Origin: Halobacteriales archaeon QS_9_68_17
GTDB taxonomy: Archaea; Halobacteriota; Halobacteria; Halobacteriales; Natronoarchaeaceae
Assembly: GCA_003023565.1 (NCBI GenBank)
Contig: PXSA01000004.1
Location: forward strand, 1 to 64,000
Direction of reading: 5' to 3'
Length of the DNA: 64,000 bases
In this document: one piece after another, positions 5,342-45,850 of the stretch
Numbering within the stretch: the stretch's first letter is position 1
How the letters are laid out: each line of letters starts with the position of its first letter
Translations under genes and position numbers: made by a program
Notes under the pieces: model-generated
Database searches by the model: none
Told to the model about the DNA's origin: nothing
Seen by the model: the letters and a program-made list of their open reading frames with translations, nothing else

Positions 5342-6118
5342 TCAGACCATGCTCTCGAAGTCGTCGAGAGAGTAGGCCGGTTCCGCGCCGCGGCGGTCGA
5401 GCGTCTCGTTGGCCAGCAGCCAGTACACCACGGAGAGGGCCTTTCGGCCCTTGTTGTTCGTGGGGACCACGAGGTCGACGTTACCGAGGCCGTTGTTGGA
5501 GTCACACATCGCGATGACCGGGATGCCGACCGTGATGGCCTCCTTGACGGCCTGCGCGTCGCCGATGGGGTCGGTGACGACCAGCACGTCCGGTTCGATG
5601 TAGCCGTCGTACTTGGGGTTGGTCAGCGTCCCCGGGATGAAACGCCCGGTGCGGGCGCGAGCACCCACGGCCTCCGCGAACTTCTCGGCCGGGAACCGGC
5701 CGTACTGGCGCGAGGAGGTGACGAGGATCTGCTCGGGGTCGTAGTTCGCCAGGAAGTCCGCGGCGGTGCGGATCCGGCTGTCGGTCTTCGAGACGTCCAG
5801 CACGTACAGCCCGTCGGTCCGGACGCGGTGGATGTACCGCTCCATGTCCTGGGTCTTCTGCTGAGTCCCGATGTGGACACCCGCGCCGAGGTAGTCCTCG
5901 ACGGGGATGAGCAGGTCGGCCTCCTCGTCGGACATGACGTCCTCGTCGAGGGCACCCTCTTGTTCGTCCTCGGTCGCCTCCGCGGCGTCCTCGGCGGTCG
6001 CTTCCTCGGCGGGCTCGGCGTCGGTGTCGGCCGCCGGGCCGGCCCCTTCGGCCGGCTCGGGGTCGACCGCTTCTTTGGCGGCGTCGAGCCCTTCCTGGTC
6101 CGTGTCGTTGTCTGCCAT
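5342..6118 (-). CDS. rpsB: 30S ribosomal protein S2, acidic N-terminal extension
   Basis: [33 protein letters not shown]...[32 protein letters not shown]; operon context. Confidence 0.97.
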
Positions 6119-6120
6119 AG

Positions 6121-7377
6121 TTACAGTGCGTCGTCCGCGATGCGGATGAGTTCGTTCAGCTTGGCGGTTCGCTCGCCGCCGACGGCCCCCGTCTTGATGA
6201 ACGGGGCGTCGGTCGCAACGGCGAGGTGTGCGATGGTCGCGTCCTCCGTCTCGCCGCTGCGATGCGAGACGACCGAGTCGTAGCCGTGTTCGCCCGCCAG
6301 CTCGATGGCGTCGAACGCGTCGGTCAGCGTGCCGATCTGGTTGGGCTTGATGAGGATGCTGTTGCCAGCGCCCTTCTCGATGCCCGTCCGCAGGCGCTCG
6401 GTGTTCGTGACGAACAGGTCGTCGCCACAGATGAGCGTCCGGTCCGCTCGCGGGCTTCGCCCGCTCGTGCTCTCCGAGGCGCTGCGCGCCTCGTTGGCCA
6501 CGCGGTCGGTCAGTTCGGCGAACGCCTCGTAGTCGTCCTCGTCGAAGGGGTCCTCGACGTAGACGAGGTCGTACTCCTCGACCAGGTCCGCGATGTGCTC
6601 GATCTGCTCGTCGGTGTCGCGGACGCTGTCGCCGTAGACGTAGCCGTCCTCGTCGGCGTCGTACAGTTCGGCACCGGCAACGTCGAGGCCGAAGCCGATC
6701 TCGAAGCCGAACTCGTCGGCGACGGTGTCGACCGCCTCGTCCATGATCTCGAACGCCTCGCTGTCGTCGATCGACGGTGCCCACGCGCCTTCGTCGCCCT
6801 TGCCGGAGGGGACGCCGCGCTCGTCCAGGATGTCGGCGACCTCCTGGTGGACCGCGGCGTTCGCGAACACCGCGTCGGAGACGCTCGGCGCGCCGACCGG
6901 CGCGGCGAGGAACTCCTGGATGTGGGTGGCGTCCGCGGCGTGCTCGCCGCCGCCGATCACGTTGCCCAGCGGCGTCGGGAACTTCTCCCCGCGGAACGTG
7001 CCGCCGAGGTGCTGGTAGGTGGGAGCGCCGAGCACGTCAGCGCCGGCCTTGGCCGCGGCCATGCTGACCGCGACGGCGCTGTTCGCACCGACCTCCGAGA
7101 AGTCGTCGGTGCCGTCCGCGCCGCGCAGGGCGTTGTCAACGTCGCGCTGGTTGCCGGCGTACACCTGTCCCTCCAGTCGAGGGACGGCGAGTTCGCGGGC
7201 CTTCGCGATCGCCTCTTGTGGCGGCAGTTCGATCGCCTCGTACTCGCCGGTACTCGCCCCGGACGGGGCCGCCGCCCGGCCGAAGCCGCCGCTCTCGGTG
7301 AGCACGTCGGCTTCGACGGTGGGGTTCCCGCGGGAGTCGAGCACGCGGCGCAGTCGGACAGTGGTGATGAGTGTCAT
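6121..7377 (-). CDS. eno: Enolase
   Basis: [25 protein letters not shown]...[14 protein letters not shown]...[20 protein letters not shown]...[20 protein letters not shown]. Confidence 0.97.
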
Positions 7378-7559
7378 TGCATGTTCCTCGAAACGGTAAA
7401 GGGCAGGACGCCCTCGTCGTACTCCTCGGCCGCGATCAGGATCGGCTCCGTCTGGTCGGTGTCGATGAGCACGGGCGCTCCGTACGACACCTGCAGCGCA
7501 CGCGCGCCGAGGATCCTGGCCTTCTCGTACCGGGTGAATCGTTCCTGTCGAGACATCAC
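7374..7559 (-). CDS. rpoK: DNA-directed RNA polymerase subunit K
   Basis: [30 protein letters not shown]; position between eno and rpoN. Confidence 0.95.
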
Positions 7560-7750
7560 TGATACGGGGAGACGACGTCGACGAGGTCCTTGTGCGAGAC
7601 GACCATCCGACGACAGCAGTGGCGGTCCACGCCGAGGTCGTCGAGCACTTTCTCGGGGTCCTCGTCGCCCTCTCGGGCACGCGCCTTGAACTCTTCCCAG
7701 TGTTCACCCACGACCGTGCCGCACGTGAAACACCGGACTGGTACCATCAT
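7556..7750 (-). CDS. rpoN: DNA-directed RNA polymerase subunit N
   Basis: [20 protein letters not shown]...[20 protein letters not shown]. Confidence 0.97.
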
Positions 7751-7759
7751 GCTATCACC

Positions 7760-8155
7760 TTAGCGGTAGGACTTCTGGTAGCGGGCCCGCGCGCCGGGGC
7801 CGCCCCACTTCTTGGGTTCGGACTGACGGACATCGTTGACCAGCAGGGAGCGGTCGAACTCCATGAACGCGTCGCGGAGTTCGGCGTCGCTCAGGTGCTG
7901 GACGACGCCGCGGGCGACGGCGGTGCGGACTGCGTCCGCCTGCCCGCTGATACCGCCGCCCTCGACGCTGACGTCGATGTCGACCTGTTCGCGCTCGTCG
8001 CCGGCGATGCGAAACGGCTCCAGCATCTTCAGGCGCGCGAGTTCCGGTTCGACCAGCTCTACCGGCTGGGAGTTGATACGGACCTTGCCGTCGCCGTCGC
8101 GCACGGTGGCGCGGGCGATGGCGGTCTTCTTCTTGCCGCTCGTGTTGGTTACCAT
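7760..8155 (-). CDS. rpsI: 30S ribosomal protein S9
   Basis: [26 protein letters not shown]...[18 protein letters not shown]. Confidence 0.97.
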
Positions 8156-8586
8156 GTGACGTTAGCACCCAGTTGCTCGCTGACATCGCCCAGATGGACG
8201 AAGCGGATGTTCGACAGTCGGTCCAGCGACGTACCGTCGAGGACCTCCCCGTCGCGGTCGTGGGGGTTGCCCACGTAGACGCGGACGTTCTCGAACGCCT
8301 CGCGGCCGCGCTGTTTCTTGTAGGGGAGCATGCCGCGGACGGTCCGTTTGAGGATCCCGTCCGGACGCTTGGGGTAGTACGGCCCGCTGTCCGAGCCGAG
8401 TTCCCGGCGCTTCCGGTACTTCGACATGACGCTCTCCTCGTCGCCCGTGATGACGGCGTCCTCCGCGTTGATGACCGCGACGCGGTCGCCGTCGAGGGCT
8501 TTCGTTGCGACCTGACTGGCGACGCGGCCGAGGATGCAGTCTCGCGCATCCACGACGACGTCGGCCTCGAACTCCGCGATGCTCAT
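8149..8586 (-). CDS. rplM: 50S ribosomal protein L13
   Basis: [86 protein letters not shown]. Confidence 0.97.
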
Positions 8587-8933
8587 CGGATCACCCGCAC
8601 GTTGCTGCCTTCGGGGTTCCGTTCGATCGCCCGTTCGAGGTCGATGGTCTCGCCGACCTGTTCGATCTTGGTCTCCGCCGTCGACGAGAAGTCGACGGCG
8701 GCGACGGTGACGCTCTTCTGGAGTGCGCCGCTCCCGAGAACCTTGCCCGGGACGATGACCGTCTCGTCCTCCCGGGCGTACCGTTCGATCCGGCCGAGGT
8801 TGACCTCGGCGTGCGTTCGGCGTGGTTTCTCGAGGCGGGCCGCGACGTCCTGCCAGACGTTCGCGTCCGCATCCCGCGCCACCGATTTCAGCTCGGCGAC
8901 AAGACTGCTCAGCCGCGGATTTGTCTTACTCAT
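8583..8933 (-). CDS. 50S ribosomal protein L18e
   Basis: [71 protein letters not shown]. Confidence 0.95.
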
Positions 8934-39725: not shown

Positions 39726-40292
39726 ATGCAGAGCGACGTGACGATTCGAGACGTGATGACAAGGGAGTACGTCGGCGTCAGCGAATCGGACACCGTCCTC
39801 GACGTCGTCGGACTGATGCGGCAGGAGGAGACCGGGTGCGTGGTCGTTCTCCGGGGGAGCGACCCCGTCGGCATCCTCACCGAGTGGGACGTCCTCGGGG
39901 TCGTCGCCGACGAGTCGTCCCCGAGGGAGACGACCGCCGCCTCCGTGATGTCCGACCCCGTCCTCACCGTCTCGCCGGACCAGCAGCTACGGACCGCCGC
40001 CGGGAAGATGTCGCGCGAGAACATCCGCCGCCTCGTCGTGATCGAGAACGGCGAGGTCGTCGGCGTGCTGAACGAGCGCGACGTCATCGCCGCCGCGGCG
40101 TCGTTCCGCCGCCCGGAGGAACCGGCACCCCCGTCCTCGGCGGCCGGGAACCAGCACGACAGCCGCATCGCCGCCGGACCGAACGGCGAGGAGTACTCCG
40201 ACCAGAGCGTCTGCGAGACCTGCGGCTCGCTCTCGGACACGCTCCGGGAGTACAACGGCCAACTGGTCTGCACCGAATGCCGGGAAGTGTGA
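39726..40292 (+). CDS. Tandem CBS-domain protein with C-terminal zinc-finger-like Cys pairs
   Basis: TIRDVMTREYVGVSESDTVLDVVGLMRQEETGCVVVLRGSDPVGILTEWDVLGVV...VMSDPVLTVSPDQQLRTAAGKMSRENIRRLVVIENGEVVGVLNERDV; CETCG...CTECRE. Confidence 0.92.
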   Translation: MQSDVTIRDVMTREYVGVSESDTVLDVVGLMRQEETGCVVVLRGSDPVGILTEWDVLGVVADESSPRETTAASVMSDPVLTVSPDQQLRTAAGKMSRENIRRLVVIENGEVVGVLNERDVIAAAASFRRPEEPAPPSSAAGNQHDSRIAAGPNGEEYSDQSVCETCGSLSDTLREYNGQLVCTECREV

Positions 40293-40370: not shown

Positions 40371-41681
40371 ATGTCACATAATACGAGAAGGCGTGACATT
40401 CTCAAGGGGATCGGAGTCGCTGGGACGATCGGTGTCGCCGGCTGTATCGGCAGCGAGAGCGGAAACGGCGGCGGCGGTAGCGGGAGCGGGCCGGACGTAC
40501 TGAACGTCATCGGCTACCCCGAAAGCGGTATTCAGTTGTTCCGCGACTACTACGATACCGGCGGGTCACAGGACATCATCGTCCCCGACGGTCTGCGCGA
40601 CGGATCGATGCCCGGCCAAGCCGGCAACGACATGGCGAACGTCGTCGGGACCGCGCCGGCCGCCGGCGGTCCGAGCCAGGAGGCGTTCAACGACCTCTAT
40701 CAGGACGAGTACGGCGAGACTCCGGGCGTGTTCACGTCCCAGTCGTACGACTCCGTCGCCCTCCTGATCCTGGCCAACGTCGCCGCCGGGGAGAACAGCG
40801 GCCCGGCGGTCAAAGAGCAGCTCCGCCGCGTCGCCAATCCCGACGGCGAGGAGTACGGCCCGAGCGAGTTCATCGACGCCGTCGAAGCCGTCGCGAACGG
40901 CGAGAACGTCAACTATCAGGGCGCGTCCAGCGCGACCAACTTCAACGAGGCCGGCGACCCGGCCTCCGCGGCGTACTCCATCTGGGAGTTCGAAGGAGCG
41001 GACTCCGAGGCGATCAACACGCTCGAGACCCAGAACTTCGAGGGCGAGAACCCCGACGGGGCCGGCCCCGCTGCCGACGAGTCGCCGGGCGGTCTCGGCC
41101 GCGAGGTCCTCGTCGGCATCCTCCTGCCCGAGACGGGCGACCTCGCCTCCGTCGGCGGCCCGATGATCAACGCCGCCGAGATACCGGTGAAGCAGGTCAA
41201 CGACTCCGACCTCGACCTGGAGGTCAACGCCATGTTCGAGGACACGCAGACGTCGCCCGACCAGGGTGTCAGCGGTGCCCAATCCCTCGTCAGCGCGGGC
41301 GTCCCGGCGGTGTGTGGGACCGCGTCCTCCGGCGTGAACGTCCCCGTCTCGCAGGAGGTGTTCATCCCGAACGAGGTCGTCGGGTGTTCGCCGTCCAGCA
41401 CGGCGCTTTCGGTCACGAACCTGGAGGACGACGACTACATCTTCCGGACCGCGCCGAGCGACCTGCTCCAGGGTGCGGTCATGGCGCAGGTGTCCGCCGA
41501 GCGCCTCGAAGGGGCGACCGCCTCGACGCTGTACGTCAACAACGACTACGGACAGCAGCTATCGGAGCGGTACACCGAGGTGTTCGAGAGCGAGCACGAC
41601 GGCGAGGTGCTGAACCAGGTCAGCTTCAACAAAGGCGAGTCGTCGTACAGCAACGTGATCGAGCAGGCGCTATCCGAGTAA
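40371..41681 (+). CDS. Liv-type ABC transporter substrate-binding lipoprotein, apparently circularly permuted
   Basis: Tat/lipobox RRRDILKGIGVAGTIGVAGC; then PDVLNVIGYPESGIQLFRDYYD...YQGASSATNFNEAGDPASAAYSIWEF (normally C-terminal), then GREVLVGILLPETGDLASVGGPMINAAEIPVKQVND...SYSNVIEQALSE* (normally N-terminal). Confidence 0.85.
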   Translation: MSHNTRRRDILKGIGVAGTIGVAGCIGSESGNGGGGSGSGPDVLNVIGYPESGIQLFRDYYDTGGSQDIIVPDGLRDGSMPGQAGNDMANVVGTAPAAGGPSQEAFNDLYQDEYGETPGVFTSQSYDSVALLILANVAAGENSGPAVKEQLRRVANPDGEEYGPSEFIDAVEAVANGENVNYQGASSATNFNEAGDPASAAYSIWEFEGADSEAINTLETQNFEGENPDGAGPAADESPGGLGREVLVGILLPETGDLASVGGPMINAAEIPVKQVNDSDLDLEVNAMFEDTQTSPDQGVSGAQSLVSAGVPAVCGTASSGVNVPVSQEVFIPNEVVGCSPSSTALSVTNLEDDDYIFRTAPSDLLQGAVMAQVSAERLEGATASTLYVNNDYGQQLSERYTEVFESEHDGEVLNQVSFNKGESSYSNVIEQALSE

Positions 41682-41815: not shown

Positions 41816-42520
41816 TCAGCCGCCGAGGAACTCCTGGCGGACCTCCTGGTCGTTCAGGAGCGCGGTGCCGCTGTCGACGAACTTGTTCTCGCCGTTCGCG
41901 AGCACGTAGCCGCGGTCGCAGCGCCGCAACGCCTCCTTCGCGTTCTGTTCGACCATCAGTATCGCCGTCCCGGCCTCGTTGATCTCGTCTACCTTGTCGA
42001 ACATCTCGTCGACGAGGTCCGGCGCGAGGCCGGCGCTCGGTTCGTCGAGCAGGAGGAGGTCCGGATCGAGCATCAGCGCCCGCCCCATGGCGAGCATCTG
42101 CTGTTGCCCGCCGCTCATCGTGCCGGCTTTCTGGTCCTTGCGCTCCTCCAGAATGGGGAAGCGGTCGTACACCTCGCGGAGCGCCGCCTCCGGCATCTCG
42201 TCGAGGATGTACGCGCCCATCTCCAGGTTCTCCTCGACGGAGAGAGCGGCGAACACGTTGTCGTTCTGCGGCACGTAGCCGAGTCCTTTGTGGATGACGC
42301 CCTCCGGTTGCGCGGCGGTGATGTCCTCGCCCGCGAACGTCACCGTCCCGCCCATGTGGGTCGTCAGGCCGAAGACGGACTTCATCACGGTGGACTTGCC
42401 CGCGCCGTTGGGACCGACGATAGTGACGTACTCCTCTTCAGCGACGTCCATGTCCACGTCGGTGAGGATCTGGAGGTCGCCGTAGCCGGCGTCCAGCTCT
42501 CGGACTTCGAGCAGGGCCAT
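41816..42520 (-). CDS. livF: Branched-chain amino-acid-type ABC transporter ATP-binding protein
   Basis: VGPNGAGKSTVMKSVFGL Walker A; MSGGQQQMLAMGRALMLDPDLLLLDEPSAGLAP. Confidence 0.95.
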   Translation of the reverse strand: MALLEVRELDAGYGDLQILTDVDMDVAEEEYVTIVGPNGAGKSTVMKSVFGLTTHMGGTVTFAGEDITAAQPEGVIHKGLGYVPQNDNVFAALSVEENLEMGAYILDEMPEAALREVYDRFPILEERKDQKAGTMSGGQQQMLAMGRALMLDPDLLLLDEPSAGLAPDLVDEMFDKVDEINEAGTAILMVEQNAKEALRRCDRGYVLANGENKFVDSGTALLNDQEVRQEFLGG

Positions 42521-43353
42521 CAGACCTCACCTCCGAGGTACGCCTCGATGACGTCCTCGCTGGCCTTGACCTCCGCCGGCGTCCCTTCCATCAGTATCTT
42601 CCCCTGATGCATGACGATCACTCGCTCGCAGTTGTTCATGATGAGGTCCATGTCGTGTTCGACGATGAGGAAGGTGTAGCCGTCCTCCCGGAGTTCGTGG
42701 ATGTGCTCGAGCAGTCGCCTCTCCAACGACGGGTTGACGCCCGCGAACGGCTCGTCGAGCAGGAGCATGTCGGGGTCGGTCAACAGCGCGCGGGCCATCT
42801 CCAGCAGTTTGCGTTGCCCGCCGGAGAGGTTCCCCGCGTACTCCTCCGCGAGGTGGTCGATCTCGAAGAAATCAAGCACCTCCCAGACGCGTTCGAGGAG
42901 CTCCTCCTCCTGCCGTCGGACGTCGTCGCGGAGGCCGGGCACGACCGAGCGCCAGAGCTTCTCGCCGCGCTGGTTCTTCGGGGCAAGCATCATGTTCTCC
43001 AGCACGGTCATCTCCTCCAGTTCGCGGGCGATCTGGAACGTCCTGACCAGCCCGCGGTCGGCGATCTCGTGGGACGCGAGCCGAGTGATCTCCTCGCCGT
43101 TGAACCGCACCGCCCCGGCGTCGGGGTCGTTCATTCCCGTGATGAGGTTGAACGTCGTGGACTTCCCGGCCCCGTTGGGACCGATCAGTCCAGTCAGCGT
43201 CCCCTCCTCGACCTCGAAGGAGACGTCGTCGACCGCAGTGATCCCGCCGAACGTCTTCTTGAGGTTCCGCACCTGCAGCGGGTACCGCCCGCGTTCGTCG
43301 GCATTGGACGCCTCGGCCGCAGTCCGGTCGGCTTGCTCCGTGGTTTCGCTCAT
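42520..43353 (-). CDS. livG: Branched-chain amino-acid-type ABC transporter ATP-binding protein
   Basis: IGPNGAGKSTTFNLITGM; NLSGGQRKLLEMARALLTDPDMLLLDEPFAGVNP. Confidence 0.95.
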   Translation of the reverse strand: MSETTEQADRTAAEASNADERGRYPLQVRNLKKTFGGITAVDDVSFEVEEGTLTGLIGPNGAGKSTTFNLITGMNDPDAGAVRFNGEEITRLASHEIADRGLVRTFQIARELEEMTVLENMMLAPKNQRGEKLWRSVVPGLRDDVRRQEEELLERVWEVLDFFEIDHLAEEYAGNLSGGQRKLLEMARALLTDPDMLLLDEPFAGVNPSLERRLLEHIHELREDGYTFLIVEHDMDLIMNNCERVIVMHQGKILMEGTPAEVKASEDVIEAYLGGEV

Positions 43354-44741
43354 CGGGTCTCACCTCCGTCGGCGGCGGCGACGTCCTCGTCCGGGCCGCC
43401 GCGGTCCGGGCGCGAGAGGTCGACGCTCGCGGCGGTCTCCTTGCGGTGACCGAGCATCCCCTCGGGCCGGTTGTGCATCAGCCAGATCAGCACCAGCCCC
43501 ATGATGACGAGGCGGAGCTGGCCGATGCTGTTCAGCGTGTACACGAGGAACGGCACGGGGTCGAGCGACGCCCCGATCGGGGCCATCGCCTGCCCGAAGC
43601 TCCCGGGGCCGTCCGGGATGTCGACCGCCGCTTGAACGAGGTTCTTGAAGTACCGCGGCCCCTCGTACAGCAGCGCCGCGAACACCGCCCCGCCGAGGAC
43701 GCTCCCGGTGTTCGACCCCGCGCCGCCGATGATCAACGCGATCCAGACGTAGAAGGTGATGTTGGGCCGGAACGACGGGGGCGTGATGCTCCCGCGGCCG
43801 GCGTACCAGAGGATGCCGGCGAAGCCCATCAGCGCGCACCCGAGGACGAACGACTTCAGCTTGAACCGGCTGGTGTCTTTCCCGAGGGAGTTAGCCACGT
43901 CCTCGTCCTCGCGGATCGCCTTGAGGACGCGCCCGAACGGCGACTCCCCGGTCCGGGAGAGCAGCCAGTAGTAGAGGGCGACGACGCCGAGCAGCACCAG
44001 ACCGTAGACGAAGCCGTCGACGACCGGTTTGGGGTTGCTCGGGATCACGACGGAAACGGCGTCTACCAGCCCGAGGTAGGGGTCCCAGAGGAACAGCGTC
44101 CTCAGGATCGCTTCGAGGGGGTCCACGTAGTTGAGGATGAGTCCCCCTCCGCCGCCGAACCCGACCATCTCGGCCGCGGGGTCGTAGCTGAACAGCGTCA
44201 CGCCGCCGACCGCGATATCGACCGTGCCGGGCACGTCGAACGACTGGAACGTATCCGACATGAACGTGAACCGGATGATCTCCGAGAAGGCGATCGTAAC
44301 GATCGCGAGGTAGTCCGCGCGCAGTCGGAGCGCGGGCAGGGCGACGACGAGTCCGACCGCCGCGGCCACGAGCACGCCGCCGATGGCCGCGATACCGAGG
44401 GGCAGGCCGAAGCCACCGACCTGTGCCGCACCGCCCTGTGCCGCCGGCGGTTTCGCGAGGACCGCCGTCACGTAGACGCCGATACCCATGAACCCGACGA
44501 CGCCGATGTTGAACAGCCCGGTGTACCCCCAGTGGAGGTTCAACGCGAGCGCCAGCATTCCGAACACGGCGACGTAGAACGTCAGGTTCGCGATGGAGTT
44601 CATGTGGCCGCGCACGCTGAAGCCGAAGACGAGGCCGGCCAGGATGTACGCGAGGTAGATGCCGCCGAACACGGCGAGCACCAGTCCGGGGTCCCGGTTC
44701 AGTAGGTCGGACGCTCGGGAACGGAAGCCGCTCGGACTCAT
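43350..44741 (-). CDS. livM: Branched-chain amino-acid-type ABC transporter permease
   Basis: ALALNLHWGYTGLFNIGVVGFMGIGVYVTAVL...ADYLAIVTIAFSEIIRF...FGRVLKAIREDEDVANSLGKDTSRFKLKSFVLGCALMGFAGILW. Confidence 0.93.
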   Translation of the reverse strand: MSPSGFRSRASDLLNRDPGLVLAVFGGIYLAYILAGLVFGFSVRGHMNSIANLTFYVAVFGMLALALNLHWGYTGLFNIGVVGFMGIGVYVTAVLAKPPAAQGGAAQVGGFGLPLGIAAIGGVLVAAAVGLVVALPALRLRADYLAIVTIAFSEIIRFTFMSDTFQSFDVPGTVDIAVGGVTLFSYDPAAEMVGFGGGGGLILNYVDPLEAILRTLFLWDPYLGLVDAVSVVIPSNPKPVVDGFVYGLVLLGVVALYYWLLSRTGESPFGRVLKAIREDEDVANSLGKDTSRFKLKSFVLGCALMGFAGILWYAGRGSITPPSFRPNITFYVWIALIIGGAGSNTGSVLGGAVFAALLYEGPRYFKNLVQAAVDIPDGPGSFGQAMAPIGASLDPVPFLVYTLNSIGQLRLVIMGLVLIWLMHNRPEGMLGHRKETAASVDLSRPDRGGPDEDVAAADGGETR

Positions 44742-45850
44742 GCCGTCGACCTCCCGCTGAAGATCCCCTGCGGTTTGAACAGGAGGATGAGGATCATCAC
44801 GGCGAACGCCGCCGCCCGCCCGAACTCGGACGGGATCCAGACGATGGAAAGCGACGCCGTCATGCCGATGACGATGCCGCCCGCGATGGCACCGTAGATC
44901 GAACCGATGCCGCCCAGGATGACCGCCGCGAAGATGAGCAAGAGCAGGAGCCATCCGTCGTTGAATCCTATCGTCCCCTTCCAGAGGACGAACATGTAGC
45001 CGGCGACGCCGGTGAGGCCGCCGCCGATGATCCATGTGGACTTGACGACGCGCTCGGTCGGGATGCCGGTGATCCGCGCGAGGTCCTCGTTGTCGGACAT
45101 CGCGCGCATCGCCTTACCGAGTTTCGTCCGCTGGAGCAGCAGGTGGACGCCGAGCATCAGCGCCGCCGAAACCACTAGCAGCGTCACGTCGTGAGCGTTG
45201 ATCCGGACGTACCCGTCGACGAACAGGAGGCTCGCAGTCGGTTGCTGCCCGGCGGCGGTCGTGCCGCGGACGTCCGAACCGAAGACGAACACGATCAGGT
45301 AGCGGAGCGCGAACGCCACGCCGATGCTCGTGATCAGCAGCGTGATCCCGCTCTCGTCGCGGATCGGCTTGTACACGAAGCGGTCGATGAGCAGGGCCAG
45401 CGCGACGGTGGCGACGCCCGCGATGAACATCCCCGCGACGACCGCGAGCGGCGAGGTCACGATACCGACGCCGAGGGCACCGCCGTACACCGACCTGCCC
45501 GAGCCAACGAGCAACAGCGAACCGGCGTCCGCGTCGCCCAGACCCGCGAGCAGGTACGACGCCGCCATGCCGCCGAAGGCCCCGGTGGTGATGTAGTCGC
45601 CGTGCGCGAAGTTCGCGAAGTTGAGAATGCTGTACGTCATCGAGAGACCGATCCCCGCGAGACCGATGATCAGCCCCCGCATCAGTCCATCCCAGGCCCA
45701 GGACGCAATGTCCGAAAACAGTATGCGCCCGGTGATCAGCCCTTCGCCGAGGAACCACGCCATGTAGAGACCCACCAGCGCGACGCCGAGCGCCAGCGGT
45801 TGTTCGACGAAGAACCGTCGACCGCGCGCGTACGTTTCTGATACACCCAT
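44738..45850 (-). CDS. livH: Branched-chain amino-acid-type ABC transporter permease
   Basis: GLAGIGLSMTYSILNFANFAHGDYITTGAFGGM...GKAMRAMSDNEDLARITGIPTERVVKSTWIIGGGLTGVAG...GGIGSIYGAIAGGIVIG. Confidence 0.93.
   Translation of the reverse strand: MGVSETYARGRRFFVEQPLALGVALVGLYMAWFLGEGLITGRILFSDIASWAWDGLMRGLIIGLAGIGLSMTYSILNFANFAHGDYITTGAFGGMAASYLLAGLGDADAGSLLLVGSGRSVYGGALGVGIVTSPLAVVAGMFIAGVATVALALLIDRFVYKPIRDESGITLLITSIGVAFALRYLIVFVFGSDVRGTTAAGQQPTASLLFVDGYVRINAHDVTLLVVSAALMLGVHLLLQRTKLGKAMRAMSDNEDLARITGIPTERVVKSTWIIGGGLTGVAGYMFVLWKGTIGFNDGWLLLLLIFAAVILGGIGSIYGAIAGGIVIGMTASLSIVWIPSEFGRAAAFAVMILILLFKPQGIFSGRSTA

Follow-up and report, generated by a model that had tools for sequence, protein, structure and literature searches.

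Natural circular permutation of a LivJ-type substrate-binding protein in haloarchaea, with likely recurrence at a single locus

The protein encoded at positions 40371-41681 (+) of the stretch of DNA analysed here, 64,000 nucleotides of contig PXSA01000004.1 of Halobacteriales archaeon QS_9_68_17 (“the window”), is a natural circular permutation of a LivJ-type substrate-binding protein, and this conclusion rests on the order of its segments, on the single family match obtained once the sequence is rotated, on AlphaFold models, and on at least 146 collinear homologues in independent genomes. We call the order found in the window P1, a second permuted order P2, and the normal order CAN. Our main reading, to which we assign a probability of about 0.82 in the absence of any binding, transport or expression data, is that the product is a functional, membrane-anchored permuted lipoprotein serving an amino-acid or amide ABC importer, and that its gene has been permuted repeatedly at the same locus.

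The gene is a single open frame from the ATG at 40371 to the TAA ending at 41681, with 436 aa plus the stop, and it was assigned to the P1 form from its sequence, its Pfam and PDB matches and its collinear homologues. All of its parts lie on the plus strand. It opens with a Tat-like leader with an RRR motif and a lipobox at Cys25 (residues 1-25, 40371-40445), recognised by inspection and without a signal-peptide predictor, and continues with a Gly/Ser-rich tether (residues 26-40, 40446-40490), defined by its sequence and by comparison across clades, which now abuts an internal position of the ancestral chain. Next come the ancestral C-terminal part (residues 41-225, 40491-41045), assigned by its match to the Peripla_BP_6 profile, and an acidic Gly/Pro linker of 17 residues that bridges the ancestral C and N termini (residues 226-242, 41046-41096), delimited in the same way as the tether. 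The chain closes with the ancestral N-terminal part, made up of the strand-helix unit N1 (residues 243-281, 41097-41213), which in P2 relatives is the extreme C terminus, and the remainder, N2N3 (residues 282-436, 41214-41678), placed by profile and PDB matches and clade comparison; the end of N2N3 is the end of the chain in P1, whereas the canonical protein runs on from there into the C part. Export by the Tat leader and lipidation of Cys25 would follow from this architecture in our main reading, and both are inferred.

The rotated order can be read from the family matches. Residues 246-434 match positions 2-187 of the Peripla_BP_6 profile, and the residues from 41 on match positions 191-312; with a cut-off of 31.7 bits for this family, the whole protein scores 109 bits and the C part alone 36.5 bits, so both halves belong to it. 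The only Pfam families matched by the window protein are Peripla_BP_6, ANF_receptor and Peripla_BP_5. The canonical N-to-C order of the LivJ-type fold is absent, the order being C-linker-N, and a single match appears only after rotation: the two Pfam stretches, 109 bits in all, then become a single one of 119 bits, and the top PDB score climbs from 51.6 to 62 bits, with alignments to LivJ/LivK-type proteins that span some 290-310 residues. Given that the segments are reversed and that rotation restores the single match, the order is truly permuted. Projected onto 3ipc, the P1 cut sits near residue 192, at a helix-to-strand transition and inside lobe 2; in the type I fold both halves of the chain contribute to each lobe.

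A preliminary description, made from sequence alone, had claimed one uninterrupted frame with its halves in reverse order, a Tat/lipobox leader and Gly/Ser linker in front, and an acidic Gly/Pro linker between the old termini. The first of these claims held by the frame and the Pfam and PDB matches, the second by inspection (RR motif, Cys25 and tether), and the third with the linker at the place given above; the comparison of each half with the LivJ-type family, which it had proposed as a check, matched both to Peripla_BP_6 in reverse order. Its wording that the two lobes are reversed failed, and the reading of the protein as having swapped lobes was rejected, since the cut is inside lobe 2 and each lobe draws on both halves; the correct statement is that the two halves are rotated.

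This order is widespread among haloarchaea. A first survey found full-length collinear homologues across many genera, and at least 146 of the 394 sampled genomes of the haloarchaeal class have a collinear full-length P1 match, several of them in one-contig genomes; the figure was counted from listed rows, and hence is a lower bound. Permuted and canonical relatives are covered by 79 named loci from GTDB genomes, with permuted genes in Halostella, Halorubrum, Haloferax, Haloplanus, Natrialba, Halorussus and others, and a search of 295 genomes of the phylum gave, at E 1e-75, hits from the same archaeal order only. A set of 233 homologous ORFs, whose loci overlap in part, comprises 153 P1, 61 CAN and 19 P2 forms. 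The preliminary description could not say whether homologues share the order; they do, and a second permuted order exists too. Within P1 and P2 pairs dN/dS is about 0.1-0.4, and in close pairs dN is 0.03-0.15 against a dS of 0.24-0.71; since dN is well below dS in these close pairs, the gene is under purifying selection. As a separate observation, the binding-protein gene appears to be frameshifted in L124 (Halolamina rubra, 5953-8730) and in L099, and here sequencing error and decay could not be distinguished.

Tail-to-tail with the gene on the minus strand lie a livF-type ABC ATPase (41816-42520; LivF model, 227 bits), a livG-type ABC ATPase (42520-43353; LivG model, 239 bits), a livM-type permease (43350-44738; LivM model, 111 bits; frame read from 44738, true start undetermined) and a livH/UrtB-type permease (44738-45850; UrtB 114 bits, LivH 103 bits), all of these scores being below the curated cut-offs; the convergent livFGMH set of the preliminary description thus held as livF/G/M/H-type genes. 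Because the NCBIfam Liv/Urt models stay below those cut-offs, the ligand, whether a branched-chain or other amino acid, an amide or urea, is undetermined. Directly upstream, at 39726-40292 (+), is a gene for a small CBS-domain-like protein, with only a partial family match and CBS assigned by inspection, a homologue of which precedes the binding-protein gene in many, not all, loci, permuted or not. Among P1 and P2 loci with sufficient flanking sequence, almost all have the binding-protein gene tail-to-tail with livF-livG-livM-livH in that order, and most CAN loci have the same arrangement, while a few CAN genes show the usual co-directional layout or lie away from liv genes. This shared convergent locus is shown, and by it P1, P2 and most CAN genes are positional orthologues. 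The binding protein would deliver its ligand, an amino acid or an amide, to the neighbouring LivFGMH-type transporter, although both the ligand class and this pairing are inferred. Apart from this, a canonical-order relative with co-directional liv genes and about 31-42% identity by half was seen in the halophilic bacterium Halanaerobium salsuginis (L134).

In the second order, P2, the leader and tether are followed by N2N3, the C part, an acidic linker of the same kind and, last of all, N1, the cut falling after the first strand-helix unit of lobe 1. P2 is present in the named loci L112, L114 and L117, and searches for the form found it in genomes G327, G402, G395, G478, G482, G487 and G488, with the G402 copy lying within a single 5.06 Mb contig; after overlapping records are merged, the carriers are seven species in three separate lineages, in all three of which the canonical three-residue spacing at the N/C junction is retained. 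No P2 form was found in the 171 genomes of a third large family (f5). Two side observations belong here: in one genus, L165 and L166 (G402 and G395) are P2 and L196 (G387) is canonical at a convergent liv locus; and the P1 protein of L102 (MAG QH_10_67_13), whose sister is the L114-type P2 group, has lost PD and begins a couple of residues downstream of the usual P1 start, which could mark a separate cut.

The permuted chain is predicted to fold into the usual two-lobed Venus-flytrap of a type I (HAAT/LivJ-type) protein. Structure prediction, which the preliminary description had proposed as a check, gave a confident AlphaFold model for P1 (pLDDT 83, pTM 0.82), and in the P2 model (pLDDT 80.5, pTM 0.79) strands and helices follow one another in the same circular order. 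The latter model aligns with Thermotoga LivK (3td9) over 348 columns with a TM of 0.75 by target, and the P1 model aligns with LivJ-type chains over about 197 columns, about half, as an order-dependent aligner allows. Across 45 P1 proteins there is little or no variation at the positions aligned to the binding-site segments of LivJ proteins of known structure (SSG, SPSST, RTAPSD, YGQ, GYP and PDG), and among these are residues that we take, from knowledge of LBP, to be ligand contacts. The product, which the preliminary description had suggested may be exported and functional, is probably functional, though function is unproven; conservation and purifying selection are shown, and export and fold are inferred.

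All proteins were rotated to the normal order before tree building. In the first tree (88 rows), P2 falls at three well-supported places inside P1, and P1 itself splits into a main clade and further groups that stand apart next to canonical genes, namely Hrr (L168-L175 and L021), g21 (L176 and L024) and L172 alone; a tree without long branches and with more P2 gives the same picture, its starred branches forcing at least six changes for P1 and three for P2. The protein tree rejects P2 as one clade (p 2e-6 and 5e-53), all permuted proteins as one clade (p 0.014 and 0.039), and main P1 plus Hrr as one group (p 0.010); a common origin of main P1 with g21 (p 0.32) or with L172 (p 0.40) is not rejected by it. 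Trees of the N half and of the C half each place P2 at three places, which argues against mosaics; deep branches have weak support in the C-half tree taken by itself, which weakly groups most P1. The tree of the neighbouring LivFGMH proteins, a separate data set, agrees with the scattering of forms; it rejects a single clade of all permuted forms (p 9e-7), of main plus Hrr (p 8e-7), of main plus g21/L172 (p 6e-5) and of P2 (p 1e-6), and the P2 groups fall within one 13-row part of it. These clade tests were run on groups named after the first tree had been seen, so that their p-values are somewhat optimistic, and the LivFGMH tree cannot exclude transfer of the binding-protein gene alone. The joining linkers differ as well: that of the main clade, FEGxNPDGAGPSADxxPGG, is recognisable in P1 and P2, and elsewhere we find AEDPVGVDxFEA in the Hrr group and IPQPEPxGSGS in g21. 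Several separate tree placements are therefore shown; there is good support for no fewer than three P1-P2 changes and two P1 origins, and a third P1 origin is likely. A bolder reading, in which one locus has been recurrently permuted at two or more cut sites with some six or seven order changes on the tree, is one to which we incline by a small margin only.

As to how the permutation arose, the ancestral termini would have been joined by the short acidic linker and the new P1 termini opened at a helix-strand turn in lobe 2. The most likely route, which is inferred, would be an in-frame tandem duplication of the gene, with a 5' loss leaving the retained leader and tether abutting the new internal start, and a 3' truncation; permutation by duplication is the classical route (PMC3320104). 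Such a rearrangement would have happened more than once in haloarchaea at this locus, with two cut sites, in lobe 2 for P1 and in lobe 1 for P2. In all three orders the leader stays in front; in the permuted ones the new ends carry almost no redundant sequence, and the linker between the old termini has 13-24 residues between anchors (14-24 with a median of 17 among 112 P1 proteins). Two P1 genes stand in tandem in the Haladaptatus-type genomes G037, DYF46 and G342 (L016, L094 and L226), and thus duplication does occur at the locus; in L094 and L016 the second copy keeps the leader and seemingly lacks the lipobox Cys, which leaves the possibility that one copy is soluble. The duplication and loss of both outer halves put forward in the preliminary description is nevertheless plausible only, because no doubled or partly redundant intermediate was found among the 233 homologous ORFs. 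Codon-level inspection weakly suggested GGC-rich tether DNA and Gly-rich loops as microhomology for the cuts. The direction of change is not fixed, given the canonical N/C spacing of P2 and the confinement of P2 groups to a single 13-row section of the liv tree; P2-to-P1 steps are still possible, and so is a duplicated ancestor that persisted for long.

Among the rival explanations, an assembly misjoin in the window, which the preliminary description had feared, could draw on the fact that this genome is a 42-contig assembly, 89% complete, but the identical order in well over a hundred other, independent genomes, some of them single-contig, leaves it practically no room. It could also be held that rearrangement left the permuted gene inactive or in decay, for which the absence of functional data is the only point in favour; the open frame, the retained leader and lipobox, a dN/dS well below 1, the conserved site residues and the wide distribution all speak against this, and we regard it as very improbable.

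Two further rivals concern recurrence itself. A single ancient P1 permutation may have spread by vertical descent and gene transfer; the canonical and P2 genes within the P1 range would then reflect, instead of fresh permutations each time, a return to another order, transfer, or recombination of permuted with canonical copies. Haloarchaea exchange genes readily, g21 and L172 are not excluded from the main clade by the protein tree, the C-half tree weakly groups most P1, and P2 (G402 and G395) and canonical (G387) carriers share a genus, all of which favour such a history; against it stand the rejection of main P1 plus Hrr both by the protein tree (p 0.010) and by that of the neighbouring genes (p 8e-7), the group-specific linkers, and the rejection of P2 monophyly in both data sets. 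Further order changes would still be needed for P2. We regard this single-origin history as possible but rather unlikely. Another proposal is that the main P1/P2 clade retained a duplicated ancestor of the form N-C-linker-N-C, from which P1 and P2 were trimmed independently in different lineages, which implies that the termini were joined only once in that clade and that only the trimming recurred. The linker shared by main-clade P1 and P2 and the intact canonical N/C spacing of P2 agree with this, but no doubled gene occurs in the 233 ORFs, the duplicate would have to persist along many branches, and the Hrr and g21 linkers would be left unexplained, so we consider it unlikely.

Both parts of the window protein belong to the LivJ/LivK-type (HAAT) family, Peripla_BP_6, with solved members such as 3ipc, 3td9, 4gnr and 2lbp. 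It resembles these in its aligned binding-site segments, its Tat/lipoprotein-type leader and the Liv-type permease and ATPase genes alongside, and it differs in the rotated halves, the linked old termini, the cut in lobe 2 (P1) or lobe 1 (P2), and the convergent orientation of the haloarchaeal gene relative to the transporter genes. The one described permuted type I binding protein that we found is TpMglB-2 (Tp0684) of Treponema pallidum, a natural, lipid-anchored circular permutation classed as “type Ic / cluster Bc”, which binds glucose with a conformational change like that of the normal form, and in which the first three N-lobe strands have moved to the end, adding a fourth inter-lobe crossing (PMC4990184). 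The type Ic proteins belong to the sugar (MglB) family, occur in spirochaetes and Gram-positives, and have one topology (PMC4990184). The haloarchaeal protein is likewise a circularly permuted type I binding protein, but family, cut sites and taxa differ, the window protein having no MglB-type sugar-family match, P1 moving the whole first half, and P2 only the first strand-helix unit. Since the TpMglB-2 permutant binds glucose and moves normally, function of the haloarchaeal permutant is plausible by analogy. DNA methyltransferases are another permuted protein family, with several circular permutations and documented duplication intermediates (PMC3320104, citing Jeltsch 1999 and Bujnicki 2002); theirs, however, is a comparison across a broad superfamily, whereas the haloarchaeal forms occupy one locus as positional orthologues and come from a single archaeal order. 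No report of a permuted LivJ in haloarchaea was found in the open-access literature searched, subscription papers and preprints being outside the search; the haloarchaeal protein adds an archaeal, amino-acid-type case with new cut sites to TpMglB-2.

The most surprising part is the recurrence at one locus. Most natural circular permutations are viewed as one-off ancient events that set remote homologues apart, and such events leave the mechanism and the selective value of permutation hard to test. Here the normal, P1 and P2 forms are positional orthologues, and several of their hosts are cultured, some of them in genetically tractable genera such as Haloferax. The three orders would thus allow a direct comparison of folding, anchoring, ligand binding and fitness, and intermediates can be looked for where the change of order is recent. 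Permuted proteins of this kind escape annotation by family match. If the bolder reading of recurrent permutation is true, this locus would provide a natural series in which the origin and fixation of circular permutants could be followed.
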